This document shows, in pieces, positions 16,440 through 60,326 of a stretch of DNA of 64,000 nt. The notes beneath the pieces are model-generated. The model made no database searches, was not told where the DNA came from, and saw nothing but the letters and a program-made list of their open reading frames with translations. Within the stretch, counting starts at the first letter, position 1. Each line of letters begins with the position of its first letter. This DNA is from Chrysaora quinquecirrha. Lineage: Eukaryota; Cnidaria; Scyphozoa; Semaeostomeae; Pelagiidae. The translations under genes were made by a program, and so were the position numbers. Where the stretch lies: assembly GCA_014526335.1 (NCBI GenBank), contig JACTAT010000011.1, positions 1,003,741 to 1,067,740 on the forward strand, read 5' to 3'.

Positions 16440-17310
16440 TTAATCTTATCTTTATTTAGATTACTTTGTTTTGTTTAGGTAGAAGCATTTATGTCAAAGG
16501 ATACAGTGTATCTTTTCAACAACAGAACAGAACGGCTTTCATTTCAAATCACAGATTTCAACACAGCTTCACAACCAGAAATTGTCAGATTGGTGCCTAC
16601 AGATTAAATACTGAAGAAAATTTTTAAAGACAGTCAACCACTTGAGGAAGGCCTTTATAAAGTTGACCACATTTGGCTAAAAAAATTATTAGAAAGACCA
16701 CACATTATTTAGTAAAGTGGACTGGATATCCTGAGCCAACTTGAGAACCGTACACAGATATAGATGTCCAAACAAGGAAAAATTAGAATGCTAAAATAAA
16801 GAATGATCTTTAATGAGAATTTGCTAGAGCAAGAAAAAAGTGTGAACTTGCTAAAAAGCCCCAATCTGTTTTTTCAAACTCAGATAAGATGTCAAATCCT
16901 CAGATTACAACTAAAGGCTGCTGTGATTTCATTGCACAAGGCGCAAAAGAAGGAAAGCAAGTGAGAATAATTGACATTTGTGATGACGAAGCAAGTCAGT
17001 GATGGAGGTTGTTTACAAATGAATAATGTTTCAGTTCAAGATTTTTGGAGACAGGGTTCAAGAATCAAGGAAAGGGAGTCTCTCATTGCAACTTCAATCT
17101 CCAATATCGAAATGGGTGAAAATACTCTTACTGGTTCATGAAGAAGACCTTTTAAACCAGACAAGCAACAAGAAGACATGCTTTAAAATGATCACGCATC
17201 TAGGAATGGCAAAATAACTGCAGAGTTGGTAAAGCTAAGAGCTAGTGAGTTCAATGTAGACCCAACACAGATAAGAAGAATTTTTTTTCGCTTAATTGTT
17301 TTGTGCCATA
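16440..17310 (+). pseudogene. Decayed reading frames with a chromodomain-like piece
   Basis: About 16490-16610 reads DTVYLFNNRTERLSFQITDF and ends in a stop. About 16645-16780, in two frames, gives EEGLYKVDHI and then LVKWTGYPEP, the pattern of a chromodomain (histone or integrase-tail reader). From 16880 to 17310 a further frame with stops reads GKQVRIIDICDDEA, then MGENTLTG and ELVKLRASEFNVDPTQIRR. I do not recognise this last part; the end has a helix-turn-helix look. A 160-170 bp segment of it has an inverted copy at 27432-27600. The protein is broken in several places and its parent family is unknown. Confidence 0.35.
17113..17285 (+). repeat. Left copy of a 170-bp inverted duplication
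   Basis: The segment from TGGGTGAAAATACTC to CCAACACAGATAA recurs in reverse orientation at 27432-27600 with few mismatches. In the left copy the coding-like frame continues on both sides, so this is probably the source. The right copy sits inside an intron. Confidence 0.75.
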
Positions 17311-18374: not shown

Positions 18375-18708
18375 TAGAAGTATAAAAATCTTAAGTCTTA
18401 CACTGTTTTTTTTTCTTTTCAGGGTAATGGTGTTATATACAATGCGTTCCTTCTGGATTACTATGACTAATATATTAGCAATTTATAACTAGGGTAGTTA
18501 ATTTTGTAGGATCTTAATTATTCATGCCTGATTATAGAAGCAATAACGATAATATGGTTAAAATTGATTTGAACAAATTGATTTTAGGGACAGGAATTCT
18601 TTTGGATGACCTTTTCTTGGATTGCCACAGTTTTTGCATAGAGGCCGTCTTCTTGCTACAGGCAGCGAATCTGCTCCTCTCTCGTCTATGGCAAGCGGAT
18701 GTCACCAT

Positions 18709-19113
18709 GGTCAGAAAAACCCACTTTTTCTCAGATAAACTGGGTTTTTCTACATTTTATCTGGTGAAAAACCCACTTTTTCTGATAAACCCACTTTTTC
18801 TAACAGATAAAGTGGGTTTTTCTAAAAACCCACTTTTTCTACAGAAAAAGTGGGTTTTTCTCAGATAAAGTGGGTTTTCTAGAAAAGTGGGTTTTCTCAG
18901 ATAAAGTGGGTTTTTCTCAGATAAAGTGGGTTTTTCAGAAAAAGTGGGTTTTTTTCAGAAAAAGTGGGTTTTTCAGAAAAAGTGGGTTTTTCTCAGATAA
19001 AGTGGGTTTTTCTCAGATAAAGTGGGTTTTTCTCAGATAAAGTGGGTTTTTCTCAGATAAAGTGGGTTTTTCTCATTATCAGATAAAGTGGGTTTTTGTC
19101 TCAAAAAGTGGGC
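18709..19113 (+). repeat. Left terminal minisatellite array
   Basis: About 20 copies of AAAGTGGGTTTTTCTCAGAT and variants. The outermost units are in the opposite orientation (AAAAACCCACTTTTTCTCAG), so the array contains its own internal inversions. ORFs across it are repeat artefacts. Confidence 0.9.
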
Positions 19114-19223
19114 GTAAAGCAAAGAGAGAATTCCTCTGCAAACGTTTCTATGTCACTGACCACGCTACTTTATCAGTATTGCTGTTGTGACATACTTACT
19201 GGTCTTACTGTTGTTCTTACTCT

Positions 19224-19625
19224 GTGAATATAGATGCTGTGGACCAAGCAAGCTTTGATGATAGCTTTAATGATTTCCTTGGGGAAGCAATTTCTGATGT
19301 GGAAGCTTTGAGACACATGCAATTTAAACATAAATCTAGTACGAAGAAAAGACCAAAGAAAGGCCCACGTGGTCCTAAAGCAAAAGTATTAGCTATGAAA
19401 TTATATCATCTTCCTGAAGCATCACAAATACCAAACTTTGGAGTTACTTCCCGTGGACTGGTGAAACAGCATATGGATCAAGGTTTCGGTAAATACTTCT
19501 TTAGTCATTATTGTTTGAATGTGGAGAAAATTGATGGATACGTGAAATCAACATGCGAAACAAGCATCGGATGGGACACCCAGGATACGGGATACACTTT
19601 GAGCGACTGGCCGACAAGCAACTAG
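19224..19625 (+). CDS. Unknown ORF, possible N-terminal module of the HECT protein
   Basis: A 133-residue frame with an acidic start (DDSFNDFLGEAISDVE), a basic stretch (KKRPKKGPRGPKAK), then MKLYHLPEASQIP and LVKQHMDQGFGKYFF. The GFGK-like motif after a hydrophobic strand loosely resembles the AGLG segment at 3684-4131, which in related proteins lies upstream of a HECT domain. It is on the same strand as the HECT ORF and is separated from it by the LINE insertion. That makes a shared transcript plausible, but I cannot show it. Confidence 0.35.
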   Translation: MNIDAVDQASFDDSFNDFLGEAISDVEALRHMQFKHKSSTKKRPKKGPRGPKAKVLAMKLYHLPEASQIPNFGVTSRGLVKQHMDQGFGKYFFSHYCLNVEKIDGYVKSTCETSIGWDTQDTGYTLSDWPTSN

Positions 19626-20337
19626 GGCTGAGATTTTGTTAAACTTTTTGGTCAAGATAACTTTCTTTACAGAGTAAATCCTTGCGAACTTGACAATTAC
19701 ATTGATAAGCAATAAAAAAGCCAAATAAAGAGTTGTTAGACTTTATTTTGTGAGGACTGAAATACTAGACATTTAAAGCAGCTTTGAGGGCTGAACCGTA
19801 AGTCCAGTTGCTTTTTAAAAAAAGTGATTTCAAGATAAACCCTCCTTTGACCTTCCGGATTCCAGGCACTTAAGCTTTGGCAATATTCGTTTGAGAGACA
19901 CAGCTAAAACCCACTGATTATCACCTATCAAATTAATAGATAAAATAGGGAGCCTGAACGAGAATTGTAAGAGGAACGGGAAACGGTCAAAATTTTGAAA
20001 CTCCAGTACTGGAAATTTTTTATGTAGGAAACTTTTCACCTCAGACAGCGAAAAGTGTTCTTTTAATTCCTGTGTTTTGTCTCCAATAGCGTATTTCTGT
20101 GACAAGCAGACAAACAGGAAACCCATATGCATTTAAATACGATCGATAAATGGGTTTGGAACATCATTCAGATAGAATAACTATGTTGCCAATATGGATA
20201 TTCAAGAAACTCTTAAGAAACTTTCAGTACTAAAAATTTGAAAATTTTAAGAAACTTTCAGTACTGGATCAACTTTTTAGTTGATCCAGTACTAGTTTTA
20301 GTATTTAGTACAGTACTAGTATTTAGTTGATCATGTT
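19626..20337. other. Non-coding; contains a perfect 14-bp hairpin
   Basis: No gene is visible. AGTACTGGATCAAC (20260-20273) and its exact complement (20280-20293) form a hairpin with a 6-base loop. Further GTACT and TTTAGT repeats follow up to the LINE edge. Confidence 0.5.
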
Positions 20338-23046
20338 TCCTTGGAGAGATAACTTTTCAGAAGTCACATGCCCTGATCTTCAAGTTAAACATCTAAATGA
20401 AATTTTACTGAATATCTTTTCAAACTTTATACCAAACAAAATAATCACAGTCAGGTCTCGCCAGGCACCTTGGATAACACAGTCAATTTAGGGCTTATAA
20501 GACTTTCGTCAGGGATGGGCAGCCAGAGGACAGGCTGGAGGCCATTACCAACATGATATCCCAGGGATCCAAATTAATTGAGGACGCTAAGGACAAGTAT
20601 TTTACAAAAATAGGTAGAACCCTCTCGAATCCTGAAACCGGTAAAAGCTCTATTGGTCCTTGATTAATAAAATCTTGAACAAAGCTAAGATACCCATAAT
20701 CTCTCCCCTGTTAGAAAACGATATATTTGTGTTGGATTTTACTGCAAAGGCAGAAATCTTTAATGATTATTTTATACAACAGTGCACCACACTTGATACT
20801 GGTAGCGAAGTTCCTCCAACGTTAGTACCCAATGCCTCACTGCTCACTGACTATTCCATCTCTGATGAGAAAATCTTGAATATTATTCGATCATTAAATC
20901 CAAATAAGGCTCATGGCTGGGACGATATTTCAGTGCGTATGATAAGGATGTGTGATGATGCCCTCCTTTTACCTCTTAAATTAATATTTGAATCATGTAT
21001 GAACCAAGGTGTTTTCCCTGAAGTCTGGAAACAAGCTAACGTAGTTCCCATTCATAAAAAGAACAGTAAGAATTTGAAACAAAACTATCCTTCAATTTCC
21101 CTTATTCTTATCTTTGATAAAATTTTAGAAAAGCTGATTTTTGATTACCTTTATCAGCATCTGAATACGAAAGGTTTATCAAACCCAAATCAGTCAGGAT
21201 TTCGCCCCGGAGATTCAACTGTTAATCAGTTACTGTCAATAGTCAATTCCATATTCACTGCCTTCGACTGCAATCCCACGATAGATGTCCGTTCTGTTTA
21301 TCTCGACATTTCAAAGGCCTTTGACAGGGTCTGGCATGAGAGTCTCGTATATAAACTACGTCGATGTGGTGTCTCTGGTAAACTACTAACACTGATGCAA
21401 AGTTTTCCCGACAATAGAAAACAGCGTGTTGTCCTGAATGGCAAAACGTCCACATGGGGTAATATTTTAGCCGGTGTTCCTCAAGGTTCTATCCTGGGTC
21501 CTCTTTTCTTTCTTATTTATATTAATGATTTGGCTGATGGCTTAAAATGTAACGTGAAACTATTTGCCGATGACACATCGATCTTTACAGTTGTTCATGA
21601 TCCACATACAGCTGCTCTTGATATGAACCATGATTTGAATCTTATTAAGCTGTGGGCTGACAATTGGCGAATGTCCTTTAATCCTGAACCATCTAAGCAG
21701 GCAGCAGAGGTTACCTTTTCGAAAAGAGAATTTCAACGGATCATCCTCCCATCTTTTTAATGGTGTTCCAGTAATGAGGGTCCAAGAGCGAGCAAAAACA
21801 CCTTGGTGTCATACTAGATTCTAAATTGTCCTTCGCAAGTCACACTCAAGCAGTTATTTCTAAATGTAAACAAGCAATAGGGATGTCGAGATTCCTTTCA
21901 AAATATTTGCCACGACATACGCTCAACGAACTTTATAAACTCTATGTTCGACCACATTTGGATTATGGTGATATAATATATCACATTCCACAAAACAATT
22001 GTGAATTTAGCCAAACTGTCACTTTGACTAATTCAATGGAAAAACTCGAATCGGTGCAATACTCTGCCGCCCTGGCAGTAACTGGCGCTTGGAAGGGCAC
22101 GTCTCGTCAAAAATTTACGATGAACTTGGTTGGGAATCGCTCAACCTCTGACGTTGGAGTAGACGCCTTGTTCTTTTCTATAAGATCATCAATAATTTAA
22201 CTCCAGATTACACCAGAGATCCTTTACCTCAGCTTCAAGAATCTGACTACAGTCTCCGCAGACGAGCTGCAATAGGGCAAATACGTGCGAGAACAGAGAG
22301 ATTCAAATCAAGTTTCTATCCTAACTGTTTGTCGGAATGGGAAAAACTTGACCCTGTGATTCAACTGCTCAGTCAATGTTTTCAAGAAACAACTATTAGC
22401 ACTCATCCGTCCACCTCCAAAACTGGTCTACAACATTCATGACCCAAAAGGCTTATCAATTTTAACACAGCTTCGTGTTGGACTCAGCAAACTGAATTTT
22501 CACAAATTCAAACATAACTTTAACGATACTTTAAATCCTTTGTGTCAGATAAATGATGGTATTGAGGATACGGAACATTTTTGCTGCTCTGCCATGCTTA
22601 TAATACATATAGACGTGATTTTCTCGACAGCGTGAATGCGATATTGCGACCCCATGGATTGGTATACCTTTCGAATGAGAATTTACTCCAAATCATCCTG
22701 TATGGCCTCGAAAAGTTATCTTTAAATTCAAATACAAAAATTATCGAGGCAACTTTGAAATACATTCAGGCCTCAAAAAGTTTCAATAAGTTGTTGTTCA
22801 GAATCTCCTCTTCGTATAATTTGTCTTTTTTTCCATTCTTGTAATTATTTGTTGCTGAAATTATTTGTAATTGTTATTTGCAATATTGTTATTTGTAATT
22901 GCTGTTTGTAATATGTAATTTGTAATATTTAAATGTAACTTTTTGTTAAATGTTATGCCGCAGGGTTGCTATGTATTTCCATGCTCCCTGTTTCCATCGT
23001 CTTGTAACCCTTGCGTGTTAACTGTAAATTTTATGGGAATATAAAA
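20338..23046 (+). mobile_element. 5'-truncated non-LTR retrotransposon (jockey/CR1-like)
   Basis: The frame from about 20338 resembles the linker before the RT (FIPNKIITV, then APWIT). The RT frame 20660-21760 has the PNKAHGWDDIS motif, VPIHKK, NQSGFRPGDST, the first catalytic block LDISKAFDRVWH, GVPQGSILGPLFF, and the active-site LFADDTSIFT. After a frameshift near 21750, the thumb-like region continues at 21826-22200 (YKLYVRPHLDYGD) and the C-terminal region at 22581-22844. At least three frame breaks make it inactive. The 3' end is a degenerate (ATTTGTA)n tract up to about 23040, as in several LINE clades. The endonuclease part is missing. It lies immediately upstream of the HECT coding region. 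Confidence 0.88.
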
Positions 23047-23053
23047 AAGATCC

Positions 23054-24251
23054 GGTTCAACATATGTAGTTGAAGAAGATATCGATAGATATCTAGGTCT
23101 TGAGCAGCTCCAAAGCGAAGGGTCTTTAGACGATGAAGATAATGAAGTATCTATTCATAAAGTGATGAGTGAACAGGAATTTCAGTTGCAGAGAATTAAG
23201 GCAAACACTGCAATGACTGCAACACAGCAACTGCTTTTGCGACGAGATTTCATAGCTGAGGACGCTATCCAGCAATATCAAGATTCGACAATCCTTAATC
23301 ATAAGCTTTTTGTTAAGTTCGATGGAGAGGTAGGGGAAGATCTGGAAGGTCTCACTCGAGAATTTTTTTCGCTGTTTTGGCAGAATTGGTCAAGAAAGCT
23401 TGCTGGAAGTAATAAACTGTATGTCAACTTAAATGCAACGAAACTGATCAGTAGCGAAGAGCTGCAAGCTGTTGGCCGGATACTCATACATGGGTATATA
23501 TTGTGTGGCTATCTGCCATACTTTATAAACGCAAGTGTTCTCTATTGGTTGCTCGTTGGTCGCGAGCCGTCTTGCAATATGTTGTACACCAAATTCATTG
23601 CATGTTTGGACGAGGGAGACATGCAGCTTGTAAATTCTGCCCTTAATGCCGAAATCTGAGATTTCAGAGGAGAAAAAAATTCGCCTTGGGGCGTTTCTGG
23701 CAAAGTATGACTTTGGCATCATTCCAACCAAAGAGACACTTAAGAGCACACTAGAGTCTCTCTCGAGGTACACAACTCTGGTCAGACCTTTCTTTTATTT
23801 GCAGGCAATAAGAGAGCCAATCAAAGGAATCGCTTCAAAGATGTTCCGTGAGGCAAAAGAAGATGAGCTGAAAGCCTTGCTAAGTAATTTAATTCCAACT
23901 GGTGTAGCAGTTGTATCGAGGCTGAATATTAAATACTCGGACGAGGAAAACAGTTGGCGTATACCAATGGAAGAGAGAGTGGTAGACTATTTGGAGACGT
24001 TTCTTGTGTCGCTCAGTCAAAAAGATCTTCTTTCCTTTGTTCGATTTGTTTCTGGGTGTGAGGTTTTACCTCCATCAATCTTGGTAGAATTTAACGGTGA
24101 GTCGAATGAAGAAATGATGGCACCTTCTGCTCACACGTGCTCAGTGACGCTTCATATTTCTCGCTACTTCCTGACATATCAAAGTCTTGAAGCAGTTTTC
24201 AAAAATCTTCTTTCAAATACGGCTCTGTGGTCAGTCTTTGATGTAATCTAA
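23054..24251 (+). CDS. HECT-domain E3 ubiquitin ligase, C-terminal part, carried by the element
   Basis: Two overlapping frames (to 23659 and from about 23646) make one HECT domain with a single frameshift near 23650. The N-lobe includes LFVKFDGEVGEDLEGLTREFF, matching the HECT start F.GE.G.D..GLTREFF. The C-lobe ends with APSAHTCSVTLHISRY, where the Cys is the ubiquitin-accepting residue, and then closes with a short tail as in HECT proteins. HECT ligases form a thioester with ubiquitin before passing it to a substrate. The closest types I recall are the G2E3-like proteins abundant in cnidarians and fish. The 5' part has been displaced or lost at the LINE insertion. The catalytic Cys is intact but the frameshift probably inactivates this copy. 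Confidence 0.78.
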
Positions 24252-24713
24252 AGGTTATGGGATTCATTTATTCAGTTATCGAGAAAGTGACTCGATATGA
24301 TCGAGAAAGGGATTACTGTATTCTTTTATATATTTGAGCTAGAGACTCTTCAAAAACTTTTATCCACTTAGAAGGTCTCAAATATTAAATGCTAAACAAG
24401 ATCATTGCCTTTTCTGTTATGTTGTTACTAAGTTTTGTTGTATACATTTATTAACGTTTATGATTGCTGACTTTCTGCATGTTGGATGCATAATAACAAG
24501 TTTTTCTAGTATATCGGTTAAAAAACATAACATGATAAAAATGCCTCTGTCTATTCTTCCCCTGAAGAAGGACTATTATCAACTCGTATAAATTAGCAAG
24601 AAACTGTTGCTATCAATGGTCGCATGACTGTAAAAATTTAAACAGGTATAAGCTCCAAAAAATAATGTAAAAGCACAAATTAAATCGTTGAATCATAAGA
24701 AGTGAACAAATGT
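24252..24713. other. Convergent intergenic region of the element
   Basis: AT-rich spacer between the 3' ends of the HECT and integrase genes. It is the expected place for two polyadenylation sites, and I see no other feature. Confidence 0.4.
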
Positions 24714-26481
24714 TTAACGAATACATCTTGACACGTAATTTACAACTCTCCCGTAGAGATCAATTCCCTCACTTTCAGAATTAGCAAGAGCATTTATACT
24801 TGTTTGAAGGTTCTCGTATTGTTCATTCGTCAGTGGTCTTGGTATTCGAGGAAGTACAACGGTGATATTGTTTGGCTCAGCAAGATCGTTGGTTCGAAAG
24901 AAGCGAGCGATCGTTTGGCCAACTCCATTGAGATCACGACGAAATAGATTGTTCATGGCCGTACTGTTGTTATCCGATTGTCCCAGATAAGCTGAATACC
25001 ATAGCTGTAATGGAGTCCTGTGATGCTCTGTTCTCAATGGGGGGTTATTGTGAGCTCTTGTCCAGTCTGTTAAATCTCTTTGCAGACGAGGTATGAACAC
25101 ATAATGCAAACAATACAAATGTATGTCGTTCTGTAGGCACAGAATATTGTGATCCTCCATGTGGTAGAAAAGTTTATAATAGTTGTCTAGAACTTTGGCG
25201 TACACATCTCTCCATAGCCTTTCAATTCTTTGATTATGCACAGAAGACCCAGTTAAGGCACTACCACGGTTATCACCATTTAATAAATTCATCAAGCCTC
25301 GCACAAAATTGAACTCGGACCCTCTGTCAACGCGAATTCTACTTGGGACGCCAAAATTTCGTAGACCGGTGATGAACACTCGTAGAGCAGATATGGCTGT
25401 ATTATCACTGGTTACTATCATGTGTGTTATGAGCCTTGAATATCCATCGATTCCACCGTGGATAACGAGATTCCATCTGTAGAGAAAAATGACCATTATA
25501 AAACGTAGCTAAACGGTAAAAGTAGCTATCAAGAATGTGTTAAAATGTCAATAACATCGTAATTGATTACCTTATAAGAGCATGGTTAGTATCCATGTGC
25601 CATAACGAGTTCGGTGAGGGTACACTGTACTGCCGTCGTCTAATTGCTTGCGCCCAGCGTCTGGCAGTACCTTCCGGATCCACTTCAGCAAGAACACGTC
25701 TGCAACGATCTCGCGGTACTATAATTGAAGGTGTTCTTGATCTCAGCAGAGCCAGCATTTCTGCTGCCCCTGAATTTTGATACTGTCTGTTCAAACCTAG
25801 AATTATTGCTCTCAGATCATCATCGCTTATGTCCGTAAATCGCTGACGTGGTGCTGTCAGATGATGACGACTTATGTACCGATGCAATGTGTTGTAATGG
25901 ACACTTCCACCCAATAAACGCTCTGCATTCCTGGCGATATATCTAACTGAAAACCCAATATTTAAAAAGTGTGCCAGTCGGTTTCTGTCTATATCATAAA
26001 AAGTCCCTCGCCGAGCAATTGCATGGCTATGTGCTTGCTGCATGTTAGCATTTGCATCTTGCAGGTTCTGTTCTTCACCATTGGCATTACTTGCTCCAGC
26101 ACTGATTTCATTTAACTTTGCTTTAACCGTGTCTAACATAAGCTCTATATGCTGAAAGTCATTCCTATCGACCAAATTTCTTACTCGATATAGATTTCGA
26201 CGCAGGTCTTCCTCTTGACGGCAAGCAGCTTGCAGACGTTCTCGGTTAGGCATTCTTAAAAACCTACGAATCGAGGACAGTCCGCTGGTTATTCTTTGCA
26301 GTACTGAATCAATTGTTGCCACTGCTGCCCTCTCCGCTCTGTTTGGAAGTGGTGCAACAGAAACATATACATTAACGAAAAAAATAAGCCACGTAAGCAT
26401 TGCTTTAGCAAAATCCATGTTGTTCATGCAGACAAGAATGAACAAATGAACTTTAGGCCCCTCTGAAAAGCAAATCTTCAA
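24714..26481 (-). CDS. Two-exon DDE integrase/transposase of the HECT element
   Basis: Exon 1 (26481-25571) and exon 2 (25476-24714) flank a 94-nt intron with GTAATC donor and TCTACAG acceptor; the frame is kept (ALIR|WNLVIHGG). Exon 1 has a hydrophobic start, an arginine-rich helical region and a helix-turn-helix (FLNIGFSVRYIARNAERLLG...TLHRYI). The integrase core spans the join: MDTNH or GIDGYS (first Asp), RVDRGSEF (second Asp) and HNQRIERLW (Glu). Both exons are open throughout, so this gene may be intact. The family is the rve-type integrase-core protein common in cnidarian and fish genomes. Convergence with a HECT gene inside the same terminal repeats argues that it mobilises this element. 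The true start is uncertain; the Met within MNNMDFAK is an alternative. Confidence 0.8.
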
Positions 26482-26502
26482 ATATAAGAAAACCTACTTC
26501 AT

Positions 26503-26832
26503 CTCCTTAGAAAAACCCACTTTATCTGAGAAAAACCCACTTTTTCGGAAAAACCCACTTTTTCTGAGAAAAACCCACTTTATCTGAGAAAAACCCACTT
26601 TATCTGAGAAAAACCCACTTTTTCTGAAAAACCCACTTTATCTGAGAAAAACCCACTTTTTCTGTAGAAAAAGTGGGTTTTTTAGAAAAACCCACTTTAT
26701 CTGTTAGAAAAAGTAGGTTTATCAGAAAAAGTGGGTTTTTCACCAGATAAAATGGGTTTTTCCAGAAAAAGTGGGTTTATCTGTAGAAAAACCCAGTTTA
26801 TCTGAGAAAAAGTGGGTTTTTCTGACCATGGT
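26503..26832 (-). repeat. Right terminal minisatellite array
   Basis: Copies of AAAAACCCACTTTATCTGAG and variants, mostly in the orientation opposite to the left array. The outermost part switches to GTGGGTTTTTCT so that the two ends mirror each other. Confidence 0.9.
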
Positions 26833-27431
26833 GACATCCGCTTGCCATACTCGTCTGCTCTCTTTGCCATAACTTGTTCTTCAGCTGTAAAAACACTCAT
26901 CATTTTTAGCATCAGATTTTAATAATTTAATCCTCTCACAGAGTGCCATTCAATTGTTGGAAGCAAAGCAAAAATAAAAAAGTTTATTTACCTGATGGAA
27001 ACAATGTGACTTCTTTTGCATGTCTCTCTTTGTATTGTTGTACTGCTTCACTTTTCCTTTTTCGATTTTGAAACTGGTCAACAAGCGATCCTGGTTGCCC
27101 TTTTTTGTGTTCTTCTGTTACTGCAGATAACTCCTCTGCTGTTGCTGGCAGTAACAGATCCCTGATTCCTTAAACATATCCTTTGTAAGAAATATGATAT
27201 ATACCATTAAGTATTAAGAAAATAAATAATTTAGCTTTTTGGACAAATAACTTTGCACACTTACCGTAAGTTGGCACAACAGGAATCCGTCTGACAATTT
27301 CTTCGCCCAGTCTGTATTTTGGATAAGAGACTATGAAATCTTCTTCTCCTGTCTTTGATATCATTGTTTTTTGTTGAATGTTTTCATTGAAATGTAAAGT
27401 TGCAATTGCATGTCTAAAAAAGGTGGTATTT

Positions 27432-27600
27432 TCACCCATTATTCTGTGTTAGGTCTACATTGAACTCACTAGCTCTTAGCTTTACCAACTCTGCAGTTAT
27501 TTTGCCATTCCTAGATGCGCGATCATTTTAAAGCATGTCTTCTTGTTGCTTGTCTGGTTTAAAAGGTCTTCTTCGTGAACCAGTAAGAGTATTTTCACCC
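27432..27600 (-). repeat. Right, inverted copy of the 170-bp duplication
   Basis: It matches 17113-17285 in reverse complement. It lies in an intron of the transposase-like gene. On both sides is a similar TATTTTCACCCATTA...TTCTGT sequence, which could be a duplication created at insertion. Confidence 0.7.
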
Positions 27601-29180
27601 ATTAATTATTCTGTTGATATTGATAGAATGTACTCCAAATACATGCACCCTTTAGGAAATGAAAAGTTGAAAAGTGTTTTTCAGCAGCTGTCGAAATCAA
27701 ATAGCTTTATTAATTCTCCTTTTTTATAACCAAACAACAATAAATACACGAGAAAACTGCAGATTTTTGTTTCCATTAATGTACACACATTTTTACTTGC
27801 AGACTTATAGCGTTTACATTCATAGATTGCATCTCTTTTTGTTCCAGGTGTTAATTTGAGAATTGTATGAAAGTGCAGTATGATATTAAGTGAAAGCATC
27901 TTACCTAACATTGGTGCCCATCCAAGAAAAAAGCAACATTTTTGGATGCCATTTATTCAATGTGGAATGAAAGCTCTTCAAGCAACTGGTTTGATCATTG
28001 GATGAAAGCATTTTTACTGCTTTACACAATTTGCTGTCAGATATAACTGCTTTCAGCTTGTCAAATGGCTCTGTACCTGTAAACATGAGACAATGATATT
28101 TTTTCATTGAAAATTTGAAATAAGTGAAAAAGTGCACACAACACAAGGAAAGCAACCAAAACTTTGGACAATACCTACTTTAATCCAGTTTCTGCGTTCA
28201 GCAATTGGTTCATGCACACATTTTGGGAAAAGTGAATTTTCGTGATTGTTGTGCTTGTTTGCAATATGATTGAGAAAAGATTTCCATTTTGCCAAAATAA
28301 GATCTCCAAATCCTGCTTTAGTGGATGTTGCGCACCAGTATAAATGATTTTGAATACCTTTGATCCACAGCAAAAGTTGATCCTCTTGGTGATAGACTGC
28401 CAGAGATCAAAATAATGCTTGGTAAGTTGCTGATGCTATTATGCCTGTCTGATATAAAAGTTGGCAGAGTCACAGAAAACAATTGCAAAAAATTAAAGGC
28501 ACGTTTGACTCCTTCCAGCTCCATCTGAGTACTCCCTTTGGTCTCATTTGCCTGTACAAATGAAAAGTTTTTTTAATAAATGTGAAAATGGGTATCACAC
28601 CCTAGGTTACAGTATGGTGCCCTGCTGAAAGGACTTTAATATTGGGCAAAACAACAGCCATTGCTGAAAATGTAAGATAAGTTGAAGAAAATTTTGTGTC
28701 ATAAAATATCTTGGAGAAAGTGCTGTGGCACTTTTGCTCCTCTTTTTTAGTACATTATATTGTAAACTAACAAAAAGTTTCTAGGTTGAAATTGCTCTGG
28801 AAGTTGCGTTTTTTACAACCAAGTCAAGGGAAGAAGTGAAAACAAAGTGACAAAGTAAAAAGTATCTTGTTTGTATGAAATATTAGGTCCATGGCCCTTT
28901 ATTTTGAATGTAGGATACTTGCAGTGCAAAGAATGAGTTAAACCACAAAAATTTAAATCATATGTATAACTGTTTGATTCTATTCCAGATGAATCTTACC
29001 TGGACAATCTCAAAATGGACAATTTTCATAATTGAAGGACAGAACATAGTGCAAGCACCATATTTGGCACAGTGGCCCATGGAATCAAAACGACCATCAC
29101 CACACCATATCAAGTCATCCCTTTTGCAAGCACATTCATCATCACATCTAAGCCATAAGTCTCCCAGTGTCTGAGAACTG

Positions 29181-52186: not shown

Positions 52187-53020
52187 TCTCAGCTATCTGA
52201 AAACAAAATTGAACTTTTGATACAGGATTGGGGACACCCAACATTTTATGCTGCTAAATTAAGTCGCCAAATATATAACTATGCAACTATATAAATATAT
52301 AAATATGCAAATATATAAATATATACATAGTCGCCAAATATATAAATATGCAACTGTTGAGGATAGATTCTACCTTATTCATACCAACACAAACAGAGTG
52401 ATTATGTCTGAAGTTGAAGAGATGCAATGCAGTCAGGAAGAGGCAGATACCAAACTCATGTATTACTGCCAACACGCCAGTTTTACAGAGTTTTCCATGG
52501 TTTTCCAGCACCTGCATTGTTACAGTTCACAGTGATGTGGCAATATACGCCATATATTTTTTGAACAAGATTGATATACATTTGTTTGTTCAAATTGGTA
52601 GAAAGAACAAAACAAGAGTTCTCGATATCAAGACCATCAGTGCAACACACGGAGAAGCAATTTAAAATTGCCTTCCAGCTTTACATGCTTTTACAGGCTG
52701 TGATTACACAAGTGCCTTCCATGGCATCTGCAAAGCAAAGGCGTTAAAGATCTTAGCCAAAAGTAAAAGATTTCAGGAAATTTTTTCCCTGTTGGGAGAA
52801 ACTTACAAATTCAACACAGATGTTTTCCAATCAATCCAAGAATTTATTTACTGTCTCTACAGTCTTAAGAAAGTAAAAGATGTCAACCAAGCAAGATATA
52901 TAAAATTTTGCAATAGCAAGGGAAAAATCCCGGAGCCACAGCAGCTACTGCCAACCTTTGACGAGCTCTATATGCATTGCAAACAGGTCTCGTACGCAAC
53001 AGCTCTTGTAAGCCCTAGAC
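52187..53020 (+). repeat. Upstream copy of a long direct duplication flanking the Penelope element
   Basis: It matches 58936-59693 throughout, from TCTCAGC to AGCCCTAGAC. The 76-bp length difference is mostly an AT-rich expansion here (ATATATAAATATGCAA units, about 52268-52350). It encodes the nuclease-like segment; the conserved GIG is GIC in this copy. Confidence 0.9.
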
Positions 53021-54947
53021 AACAAGCCGTCATTGAGCTCAAATCCTTACCAAACGTTATCATGAAACGGGCAGACAAGGGGGGAAAACTAGTCCTCCTA
53101 GACCGCACAGATTACATAAATGAAGCTCACCGTCAACTAAATGACATCAACTACTACCAAAAACTAGAACAAAACCCTATAGGCGACCTAAGTATCGAAA
53201 TTGCAACATTCACTTCAGACCTAAAAAGAGGTAAATTAACTGATGATACACTATTTCAATTTCTGACCCCTAATGCAGATACAAGAACGCCAATATTCTA
53301 TATGCTACCAAAAATACACAAACCTGGTAATCCAGGTAGACCTATCATATCTGGGTGTAATTCACCTACATCAAAACTATCTCGTTACATTGATCACTAC
53401 CTTAAACCAATAGTAAGGGAAATACCCTCCTATGTCAAAGACACTACACATTTCCTAAGAATACTAAAAACATATGATAGAAAGATAAAGCCAGGCTCAT
53501 TGTTAGTTACATTTGATGTTAAATCGCTCTACACAAAAATCTCAAACAACGAGGGGATCGGACATTGTCTGGATGCCCTCCTAAACCACTATGGGAAAAA
53601 CAACCCCTTCCAATTAGACACATAAGACAAATGTTACATTTCATACTAAAAAGAAACTACTTTGAATTCAATGGAGAATTCTACCTACAGACTATGGGAA
53701 CAGCAATGGGCACGTCATTTGCCCCAAACTATGCAAACATATTCATGAACAGAATTGAAAGCAAAATCCTAACTACAGCACCAGGGGACCTCAAACCCCT
53801 ATTCTGGATAAGCTATATTGATGACATTTTCGCCATCTGGACACATGCTATGAACAAACTGAACAGTTTCTATAACCACATGAACTCTATACATGAAACA
53901 ATCAAATTTGAGATGTCATACTCTATGGCAAGAATAGCCTTCCAAGACACAATGACAATTCTAAAGAAAGACTCAATAAGCACAAAACTTTACAAAAAAC
54001 CGACAGATATATGCTCCCTACTACACGCACAGTCCTTTCACCCAAACAACTGTAAGAAAGGAATTATGTACAGTCAAGCTCTCCAATATAGGAGAATCAT
54101 CTCAGATAATGTAGAATTTGAACTACAACTCAAAAAACTCTTAACCCTATCTGTACTGGGGTATTTTGAACATGTTCTGTACTGGGGGGGTTTTCGTCCC
54201 CCCTTAATTATCTTGGTAAGTATAAAAGATATCTTGATGAAACTTGGTAATAAGTACCTCCAATCTATAATCTATCTATTTATGGTATTGTATGCAAATT
54301 AGTCACGTGATTCGTTGCTAGGCAGCAAGATATTTGAAGGTCAGTAGGAAAAAAATGCACAAATTCGACAATATCTTACCAATACATATTCAAAATGACC
54401 TAATCATGTAGGATATAGGCAATTTTATTAGTTTTCTTGTATTTTTTTATCATTTACTGCCTAATGTTTGTATTTGGACTGTAAATAACCCATTATTCAA
54501 AGTTTGGCTAAAGTGTTCAATGGACTATAACAAACATGTTGTTTTTCAAATACCAAGAAAGACATAGATACTAAAAGACAGTCATGTATGTATGGTTCTA
54601 CTTGTCTGATATAAAAATAATCATATTAGTCATATTTTTGGAACTGTCACGTGACTGGTTGCTAAGCAACCAAATATTGGATTTTTTGTGAAATCAATCG
54701 TTTCAGATAATAAAAACAAAAATATTCTTGAAAGGTAAGTATAAGGTTACTATAAGCATCTAATTACGGCAATTGTTATGGAAATTATTTTGTCTTATTT
54801 ATTTCAAGTTTACTAAGGTAAGTATTTGTAATTACGGATACTGAGGTAAGTAGTTTTCATACACCAGGTAACAATTTTTTACCAGTTTATAGTTAGTTTC
54901 ATATCACAATTTCAACAAAAATAAATCACTGAAAACAAGAAGATCTT

Positions 54948-56976
54948 CTATTGTTCTGGATCAGCTCCTCCACATAGCTCACAGACTGTAATGGTATGTC
55001 TCTTACAGACACCTTTCCCACACATGTTACACTTTCTTGCACTATTTTGTAGTTGACTTTTCTTTTGCTTGTAGTCTTTGTCTCCTCTGAACTTGGTAAT
55101 GCAAGATGAACACCTCTGCAAATCGCTAGGTGGCTGGCGGGCAGGATCTGCTTGTGGTAGAAGAGGGATAAACATCTTAATCTTTGCCCTTGTTTCACTG
55201 TTCAGCCCTGGCATAGAAGCTCTAATTCTCAATTGCGGCATTATCAGTTCTTTAGCCAAATCCCATATGAAAACTTTGGAAGTGCAATTTGAATTTGGGA
55301 ACAACTCGGCAAAGATACTGCTAGCATTCACAATGCTAGTGTCGATCACAAAAGCGAATGTATTGAGAATCCAGCAAGTATTCTTTGTCTTTACAGTGTA
55401 CTTTCCGATACGGTAGTCCACTATATCGACACCACCTTTCGTTTTATCATAAAGGACTATGGTATCTGGTTTCTTGCGGCTGTCCTTTGAAGTTTTCACT
55501 TCTTTGTGCATTGTGCTAAGCACAGCAACTGCTTTCTTCTTATTCTTGCTATTTGGGACATAGCTTGTCAGCATTAGTTTCCCTTTTTCTCTTTCATAAT
55601 ATGCCTTAGTTGAAGGATCATCTCTTCCTTGTGTCACGAATATCTCCTTTGGGATGCCCTTTCTATTTGCTGCCAGTGTTCCGACAATTGTTATTTTTTT
55701 TCATACAAGCTGTTAGCAAGGGAGATACTTGTAAAAAACCGATCTAACAAAATGTTTCGACCACTCATATCAGCATATTTTGCAAGCCCGTCAACGAGAT
55801 AGAGGCAATAGCCATCAGAATTAGTGATGTAAAAATGATTTGGTTCTCCTCTCGGTTTACCAGTATAAGGCAAGGAGAAATACGTATAGCGTAACTTGCT
55901 ATCAGCCAAAGAGCGATATAGTAAGCCATACATCGCAGGTTTCTTTGGGTTGTATTGACGGAATCCAATATTTCCACGATATGGATACAAAGTCTCATCA
56001 ATGGCTAAAAATTCACCTGGTATCCTCATCTTTGCGCAGTTTTCGTTGAAAGTTTCAAAAAAATCTCTGATAGCAGCTGCACGATCATGGGTCCAGCGCT
56101 CATGTCGTGTAGACTGATCATCAAAAGAAATAGCTGATGTAAGAAAAACAAATCTGTTTCTTGACATTGTTGCTGCATAAATTGGACTTAAAGATTCATG
56201 GAACCACAGTGACATAGTTGAATCGAGGTTCTGATGAAGAGCACCCCTAACCATCCAAAGACCAATAAAAGCACGCATCTCCGCGTATCAACCTCCCTAA
56301 AGTAAGTGTACTTGTCACTCTCTTTCATGTGTTCAGACATTCTTGCAGCAATCCTGTTGATCTTTTGATTTGTGTGGAATACCATGTCAGAGATCATAGT
56401 CCCATTAACAAAAAGTTCCCAAGCGGTAACTTTGTCTGTTGCTGCTTTTGCGAGGGCTGTTATTCCAGGACGATTTTTCAAGATATTGGCAGCAGATGTC
56501 CGACCTACAGAAGCTGGTGGTTGGCTGGTCCAAACAATTTTTTCTGGGTTTTTGACTTTTTTGTTGCCAATAATTACAGTGAACGTTTCACTCTCTTGCT
56601 GTGGTAGAGGCTCAAAGAAATCCGGGTCTAGTGCATCATCAAGTGTCTTAGGTCTCAATGCAATGTCCTCTTTGTACCTTGCTAGCCGAGCCTGCCTTTC
56701 AAACCTTCCAGAACTTTCCTGTTCAGACTCCTCACTTATCTCTGCTTCTACGACTGGTTGCTCATTGGTGGAAATATCTTGCTCTTCGTCAGTATCAGAT
56801 GCAGCATCTTCATCATCACTACAGCTTTCTCTCTCACTGTCTTCACAATCACTGAACATGTTAAACTCCTCATCTGATCCAAGAATTTCTTCTTCCAAAT
56901 ATTGCTGCACCTGGATATCAGTGAGTAGCCTTGATCTCTGCTCAGCTAATCGAGGACATTTTGAATTTGATTCCAT
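54948..56976 (-). pseudogene. piggyBac transposase with two frameshifts
   Basis: Three collinear frames. 56976 to about 56290: an acidic N-terminal region (SDCEDSERESCSDDEDAASD) and KIVWTSQPP. 56278-55691: the catalytic core with MRAFIGLWMVRG, LAIDETLYPYRG (first Asp) and LLDRFFTSISLA (second Asp). 55690-54948: ATIT... then KTKGGVDIVDY (third Asp) and a C-terminal cysteine-rich domain (CSSCI, CNMCGKGVC, CELCGG) that binds the transposon ends. All three catalytic Asp residues are present. One break is near 56280. The other is at a run of eight A (minus strand) near 55690-55700, the kind of change expected from polymerase slippage. The start Met at 56976 is natural. piggyBac transposases cut and paste at TTAA without scars. 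Confidence 0.9.
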
Positions 56977-58070
56977 ATTTACTGGTTATTTTCAGGTTGT
57001 GTTATACGAATATATGACTATGAACTCAGTAATAAATATATACAATTTCGTTTAATCTACTTTCCTTCCAGAAGGTAAATTTTATGATCAATGAAAAACA
57101 ACAAATGACGATTCGAAAACAGGTCTGATCTCTAGCACACAAGATTCAGAAAGAAATGCACGTGATGATTGCGCAACGTAAATTCAATTTGTAAAATTTC
57201 ATTTCAGATTGGGTGGCTTTTTCTTCTGCGAGCAACCTGCGTGGTCTGAAGTTAAAATAATTGCTTCAATGAAGGAAAAGTAAAAAGAAGCAGATTTACA
57301 ATACAAATGACTGATTTTCAGCAAAATTTGTTGTTCTTATCAAAAATAGAACTGATTTTTTTTCTAAAATGTATAAAATTTAAGCCAATTCATAACAACA
57401 AGACACTGAAAAAGCAACAAAAATTGCAAAAAACTACAAAAAAATACTTCCTGACATGAAAATTCTTCTCGCAAAGTATTCTTATTCAATCATCAACAAA
57501 ATGAATCTATTGAATTGAATATTATTGAACAAATGTGATAGCAGATGTTATTTACACAATTTTCTACCATAAAAATATTAGCTTCTAATACAGCTTACAT
57601 TTTCAATAAGATAAACATGTCATAGAAGTTACATCTCTATTGTGCTGTTGTTTCATATCAACTTCTTACCAAATATGAAAAAAATTCGACATTTGACTAA
57701 ATCATATAAGCATTATGACGTCATGAAGACAGTGACATCATAGAAATAAGAAACTATAAATACAAACCAAAATATAACAAATTATACATCAAATGATGCA
57801 GCAGACAAAGATAAATCCAACAAGACTACTTTCATAAAAATGGGTTGAATAATAAAGAAGTTATAAGCAAAAAACGTCTTGTCCTTGACACCTCTATAAT
57901 AAAATAGGTGTGTTCTGGTCACGTGATAAACGGCAACGCCCTTATTGTAGCAAAAATAAGTTTCCCAATAAATTTTAGGAAAAGTCAAGAGACTTCAGAC
58001 CTCTAATTAAAACAGTTTTCTTGCAGCATTCACATTTATAGTAGGGGGGCGAAAAACGCCCCCCCCCAGT
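56977..58070. other. 5' non-coding part of the piggyBac element
   Basis: About 1.1 kb of AT-rich DNA between the transposase start and the right terminal repeat. The transposase promoter should lie here, but I see no distinct motif. Confidence 0.5.
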
Positions 58071-58935: not shown

Positions 58936-59693
58936 TCTCAGCGATCCGAAAACAAAATTGAACTTTTGATACAGGATTGGGGATACCCAACATTTTATGC
59001 TGCTAAATTAAGTTAAATACATGCAACTGTTGAAGATAGATTCTACCTTATTCATACCGACACAAACAGAATGATTATGTCTGAAGTTGAAGAGATGCAA
59101 TGCAGTCAGGAAGAGGCAGATACCAAACTTATGTATTACTGCCAAAACGCCAGTTTTACAGGGTTTTCCAGGGTTTTCCAGCACCTGCAGTGTTACAGTT
59201 CACAGTGATGTGGCAATATACGCAATATATTTTTTGAACAAGATTGATATACATTTGTTTGTTCAAATTTGTAGAAAGAACAAAACAAGAGTTCTCGATA
59301 TCAAGACCATCAGTGCAACACACGGAGAAGCAATTTAAAATTGCCTTCCAGCTTTACATGCTTTTACAGGCTGTGATTACACAAGTGCCTTCCATGGCAT
59401 TGGCAAAGCAAAGGCGTTAAAGATCTTAGCCAAAAGTAAAAGATTTCAGGAAATTTTTTCCCTGTTGGGAGAAACTTACGAATTCAACACAGATCTTTTC
59501 CAATCAATCCAAGAATTTATTTACTGTCTCTACAGTCTTAAGAAAGTAAAAGATGTCAACCAAGCAAGATATATAAAATTTTGCAATAGCAAGGGAAAAA
59601 TCCCGGAGCCACAGATGCTACTGCCAACCTTTGACGAGCTCTATATGCATTGCAAACAGGTCTCGTACACAACAGCTCTTGCAAGCCCTAGAC
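58936..59693 (+). repeat. Downstream copy of the long direct duplication
   Basis: This copy keeps the conserved GIG motif (FHGIGKAKA) and runs directly into the final Cys-rich exon, so it is the ancestral context. It starts exactly where Penelope sequence ends. Confidence 0.9.
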
Positions 59694-60326
59694 AGCACTC
59701 CAGTGATTCCTTCACCTAATTGATATGGCTTGAAAAAACTGCCAAACAACCTATTAAAGGTGGCGTGGATGACGCAAAAACCTGCGCTGGAATCTATTCT
59801 TGAACTTGTCTCATGTTCTTGCAAAAATCCAAAATGTATGGATCTGAACTGTGCCTGTGTATCATATGTACTAACATGTACTGATCTTTGTCAATGTTCA
59901 AAGTGCGAGAATGAAGAAGCAGAAGATGATAATCTTGAATATGATGATGATGAAGAAGTTGACGAAGATGATCTTCTTCAGGGCGAATCTGACAAGGCAA
60001 TAATATCTTATTTTGGAAATGAATAAACAACTGTGGGATATATAGGGATGTATAGACTGTTTATATTATACCTGATTTTGTCTTAGTTTTAGTAGATTTT
60101 CTTTATCGCTTATTCTCTCTTTTCTGATATTGTGTTATGTATATATTTGAAGATGAAGAATATATATACACCTGATATCCATCTTTACAAGGTAGCTCTG
60201 TCGGCAAGGAGGGTTACAAAGGGGGCAATGGGAGCAAAATTAGTCAATTTGTGGAGTCTTTATAAATATGAAGCTGATCATGGAGAAAAATCCTTAACAG
60301 TTTATTGTTATTTAAATGTCAATATT

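Follow-up and report, generated by a model that had tools for sequence, protein, structure and literature searches.

Two convergent genes within one mobile element

Is a gene for a HECT ubiquitin ligase that lies beside a DDE transposase gene, between matching inverted ends, a working part of the transposon or a passenger? The question is raised by a 64,000-nucleotide stretch of the genome of the cnidarian Chrysaora quinquecirrha (assembly GCA_014526335.1, contig JACTAT010000011.1, forward-strand positions 1,003,741 to 1,067,740), hereafter called the window and numbered from its first letter. We conclude with high confidence that the element at 18687-26849 is a cut-and-paste transposon of the IS3EU/GingerRoot type, the autonomous form of which combines an rva_4 DD34E transposase with a convergent gene for a HECT E3 ligase as an integral, co-inherited component. 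Recurrence of this pairing in many copies that are only distantly related suggests that the HECT gene has a function in the element.

Alignment of the inverted ends within the window delimits the element, which is flanked by the direct 6-bp repeat CTCGTC. This target site duplication (TSD) is exact (18681-18686 and 26850-26855), and the outermost 68 nt of both ends (18687-18754 and 26782-26849; first bases TATGGCAAGCGGATGTCACC, TATGGC...) match without a single mismatch, in agreement with a preliminary description of the locus made from its sequence. That description had also recorded inverted arrays of a 20-bp unit. Tandem units of ~20 bp do lie at both ends, directly inward of the 68-nt perfect stretches. 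Since the gapped inverted match extends through both arrays, these are parts of one long terminal inverted repeat (TIR) with insertions and deletions (left, 18687-19112; right, 26506-26849) rather than two independent arrays.

The transposase gene occupies the minus strand as two exons, 25571-26427 (N-terminal part and first catalytic D) and 24714-25476 (rva_4 core with the second D and the E), which are separated by a 94-bp GT..AG intron (25477-25570) and form a single frame without internal stop. The two-exon, open DDE gene announced earlier is therefore confirmed, although not as cargo: it encodes the transposase of the element. Pfam assigns exon 2 to rva_4 ('Integrase core domain', 2.5e-68). 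The D, D and E residues are invariant across 24 aligned relatives, and 34 residues separate the last two of them by hand count (DD34E). A Pfam scan returned no zinc-finger match on the window exons or on the relative P0009, which gave a weak helix-turn-helix match (HTH_38, 0.0016). The AlphaFold2 model of P0009 had a predicted local distance difference test score (pLDDT) of 85; its top PDB matches, which fall among TnsB of a CRISPR-associated transposon (CAST), IstA and retroviral integrases, reached query TM-scores of just 0.2-0.35. A scan of viral contigs with P0009 as the query found no relative, and the best matches in a viral structure library, retroviral Pol/integrase proteins, added nothing. 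Among the relatives that carry a species name, the best ones belong to the hydrozoan Clytia. At the start of the predicted transposase, a signal-like hydrophobic segment precedes PLPNR.ERA (26323-26427, minus strand), which is odd in a nuclear enzyme; both features recur in the sea urchin relative P0022 and in another copy of the element, C146.

The HECT gene lies on the plus strand, convergent with the transposase gene. Its first exon (about 19317-19488) was placed by means of the homologue P0004, with 63% identity to P0004 residues 1-62 and a donor GT read from the sequence. The remaining coding part (23049-24251), 70-73% identical to residues 233-631 of P0002, keeps the AHTC motif and the PF00632 domain (1.9e-07; 31.5 bits versus a cut-off of 23.9). 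A nested long interspersed nuclear element (LINE), recognized by its reverse transcriptase (PF00078, 4.9e-24), occupies 20283-23048 on the plus strand, with breakpoints derived from alignment to the sister copy C106; these 2.77 kb replace 826 bp of HECT gene that C106 has. The replacement and a single frameshift near 23650 break the HECT gene of the window; this copy could provide transposase, and probably yields no active ligase. The HECT domain and catalytic-Cys motif of the preliminary description are thus present, but the frame is not open, and the LINE had gone unmentioned. PF00632 also scored above the cut-off in P0004, P0007 and the loci C286, C235 and C217, and slightly under it in P0001 and P0002. 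The catalytic Cys aligned in 12 of 14 genome loci, the exceptions being C106, where the region is missing, and the C378 fragment, where the residue differs. For HECT, structure modeling from 8 sequences gave a mean pLDDT of 37.5, and the model was set aside. A further HECT relative, P0008, comes from what we take to be the jellyfish Aurelia.

Copies with the same ends elsewhere in the genome

We searched the genome (328 Mb, 740 contigs) with the left end of the element. The 182 matches include many cases in which one copy contributed several array pieces; 40 of 70 candidates were scored. Fourteen two-ended copies, window included, were read. An exact 6-bp TSD flanks 10 of them (window, C146, C368, C399, C653, C429, C124, C336, C257 and C246), and five of the six TSD bases agree in C298 and C424. 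TATGG stands at both termini in 12 of the 14 copies, with single-end departures in C335 (TATAG) and C298 (TAATG). The most complete counterpart, C146:256370-265014, measures 8,645 bp, has ends that agree at 20 of 20 nt and a GCCGTG duplication, and keeps the main HECT frame open across 704 amino acids together with both transposase exons. Its HECT protein shares 44.5% of residues with P0002, and its transposase 54-66% with that of the window. Copy C368:119754-128915 (TSD GAGGTT) holds portions of both genes. Same ends, TSDs and convergent order in other copies bear out the earlier proposal that HECT and DDE genes travel in one mobile unit. The stretches read at further gene-bearing loci (C106, C389, C439, C285, C343 and C661) contained no matching second end.

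Pairing of HECT and transposase genes

The association was quantified on a list of 85 rva_4 loci, merged from 102 rows after scoring 93 of 655 candidates; it is a lower bound and biased toward relatives of P0009. A HECT gene lies within 8 kb at all 15 listed loci with transposases at least 50% identical to P0009. Conversely, 20 HECT loci from the P0002 search form a close group, which we set at roughly at least 35% identity, and 15 of these have a transposase within 8 kb, convergent in 15 of 15 pairs. Within this clade the two genes are thus not found mostly apart; HECT and DDE genes mostly outside these ends would have been, by the preliminary description, evidence against it. Four of the 29 more distant HECT loci from the same search have a listed transposase, again convergent in 4/4 cases.

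Across the whole list, 29 of the 85 rva_4 loci have a HECT match at 2 kb or less, all 29 convergent, when the HECT list comprises all 135 PF00632 rows and 49 P0002 rows. With an added HECT query from C235, the count rises to 40/85, all 40 convergent, against a chance expectation of 0.17. The HECT list of this wider count used 49 of 81 rows from P0002, 41 of 135 from PF00632 and 81 of 106 from the C235 query, leaving out extra pieces of listed loci and PF00632 exon pieces mainly of host-like genes. Loci C217:152024 and C235:268968, unpaired in the narrower count, each proved on reading to have a convergent HECT gene above the Pfam cut-off and were scored as paired in the wider one. Within 8 kb, 50 of the 85 loci are paired (46 convergent, 3 in the same direction, 1 divergent). 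As a control, 102 piggyBac loci (from 122 rows) had a HECT match within 2 kb in no case and within 8 kb in two. In EukProt, HECT P0004 and DDE P0009 are named gene7518-8351_t and gene7521-8352_t, with one naming scheme and consecutive transcript numbers, which suggests that the two genes are adjacent in one other species.

The convergent rule is broken at C271:493002/498706 and C302:988009/982117, where transposase and HECT genes point the same way at a distance of ~5.1 kb. Region C386:1226066-1248305 holds four HECT matches of near-equal score at a spacing of ~7.0-7.4 kb, suggestive of tandem amplification.

Shared inheritance and selection

As judged by eye, trees of HECT and DDE from the same loci agree in their groups, every one of which has a local support of 0.98 or higher: the window with C106 and C661; C368 with the C389 copies and C439; and C285 with C298 and C343. 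C146 sits beside the last of these with weaker support (0.87 and 0.54). The terminal motif follows the groups, being GCGGATGTCACC, or a sequence one change away, in the window/C106/C661 and C368/C389/C439 groups, and GCGAAAGTCACC in the remaining ones, where one C298 end deviates. HECT genes were compared in pairs that had no fewer than 60 codons aligned and more than 50% amino-acid identity. Between subfamilies, the proportions of nonsynonymous differences (pN) were 0.10-0.34 versus synonymous proportions (pS) of 0.65-0.84, with pS near saturation. HECT divergence between subfamilies is mainly synonymous.

Relation to known transposons

The literature already has a name for the superfamily of the carrier, IS3EU/GingerRoot. 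IS3EU elements have TAYGG..CCRTA ends and 6-bp TSDs (PMC12730594, PMC10045372). The element in the window shares the TA..TA termini of this form, the 6-bp TSD and an integrase-like DDE transposase in which the Pfam scan detected no N-terminal HHCC zinc finger. It is accordingly IS3EU-like as judged by ends and TSD. It differs in the HECT ligase as its second gene, the minisatellite within its TIRs and its cnidarian host. A comparable two-gene layout, with a different enzyme, occurs in TET-bearing fungal IS3EU families, where transposase and alpha-kinase genes have opposite orientations (PMC12730594). GingerRoot elements, which form one lineage with IS3EU according to PMC10045372, likewise have 6-bp TSDs and mostly TA..TA ends, whereas HECT is unmentioned in the accessible part of their description (PMC10045372).

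Ginger1 transposons, with families in Hydra, also join an integrase-like transposase to an enzyme of the ubiquitin/SUMO pathway (PMC2836005). In Ginger1, however, an OTU or Ulp1 protease domain is fused to the transposase and the flanks are CCGG, whereas the ligase described here is a separate, convergent gene and the TSD has 6 bp. Neither the HHCC finger nor a fused OTU/Ulp1 domain of Ginger1 was detected by the Pfam scan. Bao and colleagues proposed a possible role for the Ginger1 domains in switching on repair while transposition proceeds or once it is complete (PMC2836005). A literature search, with subscription papers, preprints and Repbase Reports largely outside it, found no link between HECT and IS3EU, GingerRoot or any DDE transposon.

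Foldback elements have long inverted ends with internal repeats, as does the element studied here, in which, however, the DDE transposase is defined and the termini resemble those of IS3EU. A foldback element as a class of its own was dropped, the arrays belonging to one TIR with such termini.

Passenger or partner?

Several observations weigh against the reading as a two-gene transposon. No TSD was found at C546 and C335, two of the 14 two-ended copies. Ten of these copies are short (231-1,078 bp; C653, C429, C124, C399, C546, C424, C335, C336, C257 and C246), too small for genes, and carry neither one. The existence of short copies with neither gene means that HECT is not required in cis. 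Gene-less copies with the same ends, which the preliminary description had named as evidence against itself, do therefore occur (10 read), but as short derivatives. Such derivatives are usual for DNA transposons. TIR and TSD together are established for the clade of the window only; at the distant pairs C286 and C348 neither was found in stretches of 7.5 and 6.5 kb, and the HECT partner at C348 gave no Pfam match at 0.01. Five close HECT loci (C524, C424:1688270, C171:438716, C534:352756 and C387:2745856) have no listed transposase within 12 kb, and at C524 none was found in 19 kb. Conversely, 35 of the 85 rva_4 loci lack a listed HECT gene within 8 kb. The only one of the still unpaired loci that was read, C290:5351795, gave just two collinear HECT pieces below threshold, one with an SHTC motif, which are suggestive at most. 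The C235 query behind the wider count was itself taken from beside a transposase, and without it the count is the narrower 29/85. Finally, the ratio of nonsynonymous to synonymous substitution rates (dN/dS) of HECT among recent copies within subfamilies spans 0.23 to 2.96, and many copies are thus decaying.

One alternative is that the element took up HECT passively from a host and carries it along with no role in it. Transposons do acquire genes, the HECT gene of the window is broken, and TET/JBP genes pass passively among fungal transposon lineages (PMC12730594). Passive capture would nevertheless hardly explain why the same partner recurs in the same convergent order, also in distant rva_4 clades, although the HECT proteins are only ~23-50% identical. 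Nor does it fit the excess of synonymous change between subfamilies, the same groups in both trees, or the stop-free HECT frames of 637-741 amino acids at nine loci; we consider it improbable. Still less credible is that HECT and DDE genes are separate repeats that insert close to each other or are carried together in duplicated blocks. Two C389 copies with identical bases before the left end do look like one duplicated segment, and C386 has its four evenly spaced HECT matches, but common ends and TSDs enclose both genes, and the invariably convergent close pairs contrast with the piggyBac control.

Proposed mechanism and role of the ligase

In the two-gene IS3EU/GingerRoot-type transposon that we favor, the transposase would recognize the TATGG ends, and the repeated ~20-bp TIR units probably offer it multiple binding sites. 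As the TSDs and the enzyme family suggest, the rva_4 protein would excise the unit and reinsert it with a 6-bp staggered cut, and it may also move the short gene-less copies in trans. Our prediction for the ligase is that it most likely works in trans, in the germ line, and that its target protein belongs to the transposition complex or lies close to it. The ligase might serve to dismantle the post-integration complex for repair or, instead, to remove a blocking host factor. In an alternative that keeps the element as described, the main task of the ligase would be to hold the transposase in check (self-restraint), and neither host proteins nor the integration complex would be its chief targets. 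Dosage control is conceivable for genes inherited together, but no degron or interaction evidence points to it, and the ubiquitin-related domains of Ginger1 are proteases with a suggested part in repair (PMC2836005); we regard self-restraint as possible, if rather unlikely.

The recurrence of the pair makes a ubiquitin ligase the standing partner of a transposon, not a one-off capture, and offers a route to the protein that a selfish element needs tagged. HECT gene counts in such genomes may include many transposon genes. A broader proposal, to which we give an even chance, is that throughout the animals rva_4 (IS3EU-like) transposons have the HECT ligase as their ancestral and near-obligatory second gene, dedicated to transposition or to countering the host. 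If HECT is ancestral to these transposons, many annotated 'HECT gene family expansions' would be transposon genes.

Surroundings of the element

A second inverted-repeat pair, 17111-17271 and 27443-27603 (158/161 identical), flanks the element and is perhaps an older element that received the insertion; no clear duplication was found at its outer edges. The segment 9174-15415 (minus strand) is a BEL/Pao-type retrotransposon with a Pao peptidase, an integrase zinc-binding domain and weak reverse-transcriptase and rve matches. A piggyBac-type transposase (DDE_Tnp_1_7) is split over two frames at 54948-56985 (minus strand). Two plus-strand frames, 52666-53625 and 59339-59719, start with NCLPALHAFTGCDYTSAFHGI and are near-identical for ~115 residues; the former overlaps another frame that has a sub-threshold reverse-transcriptase match.

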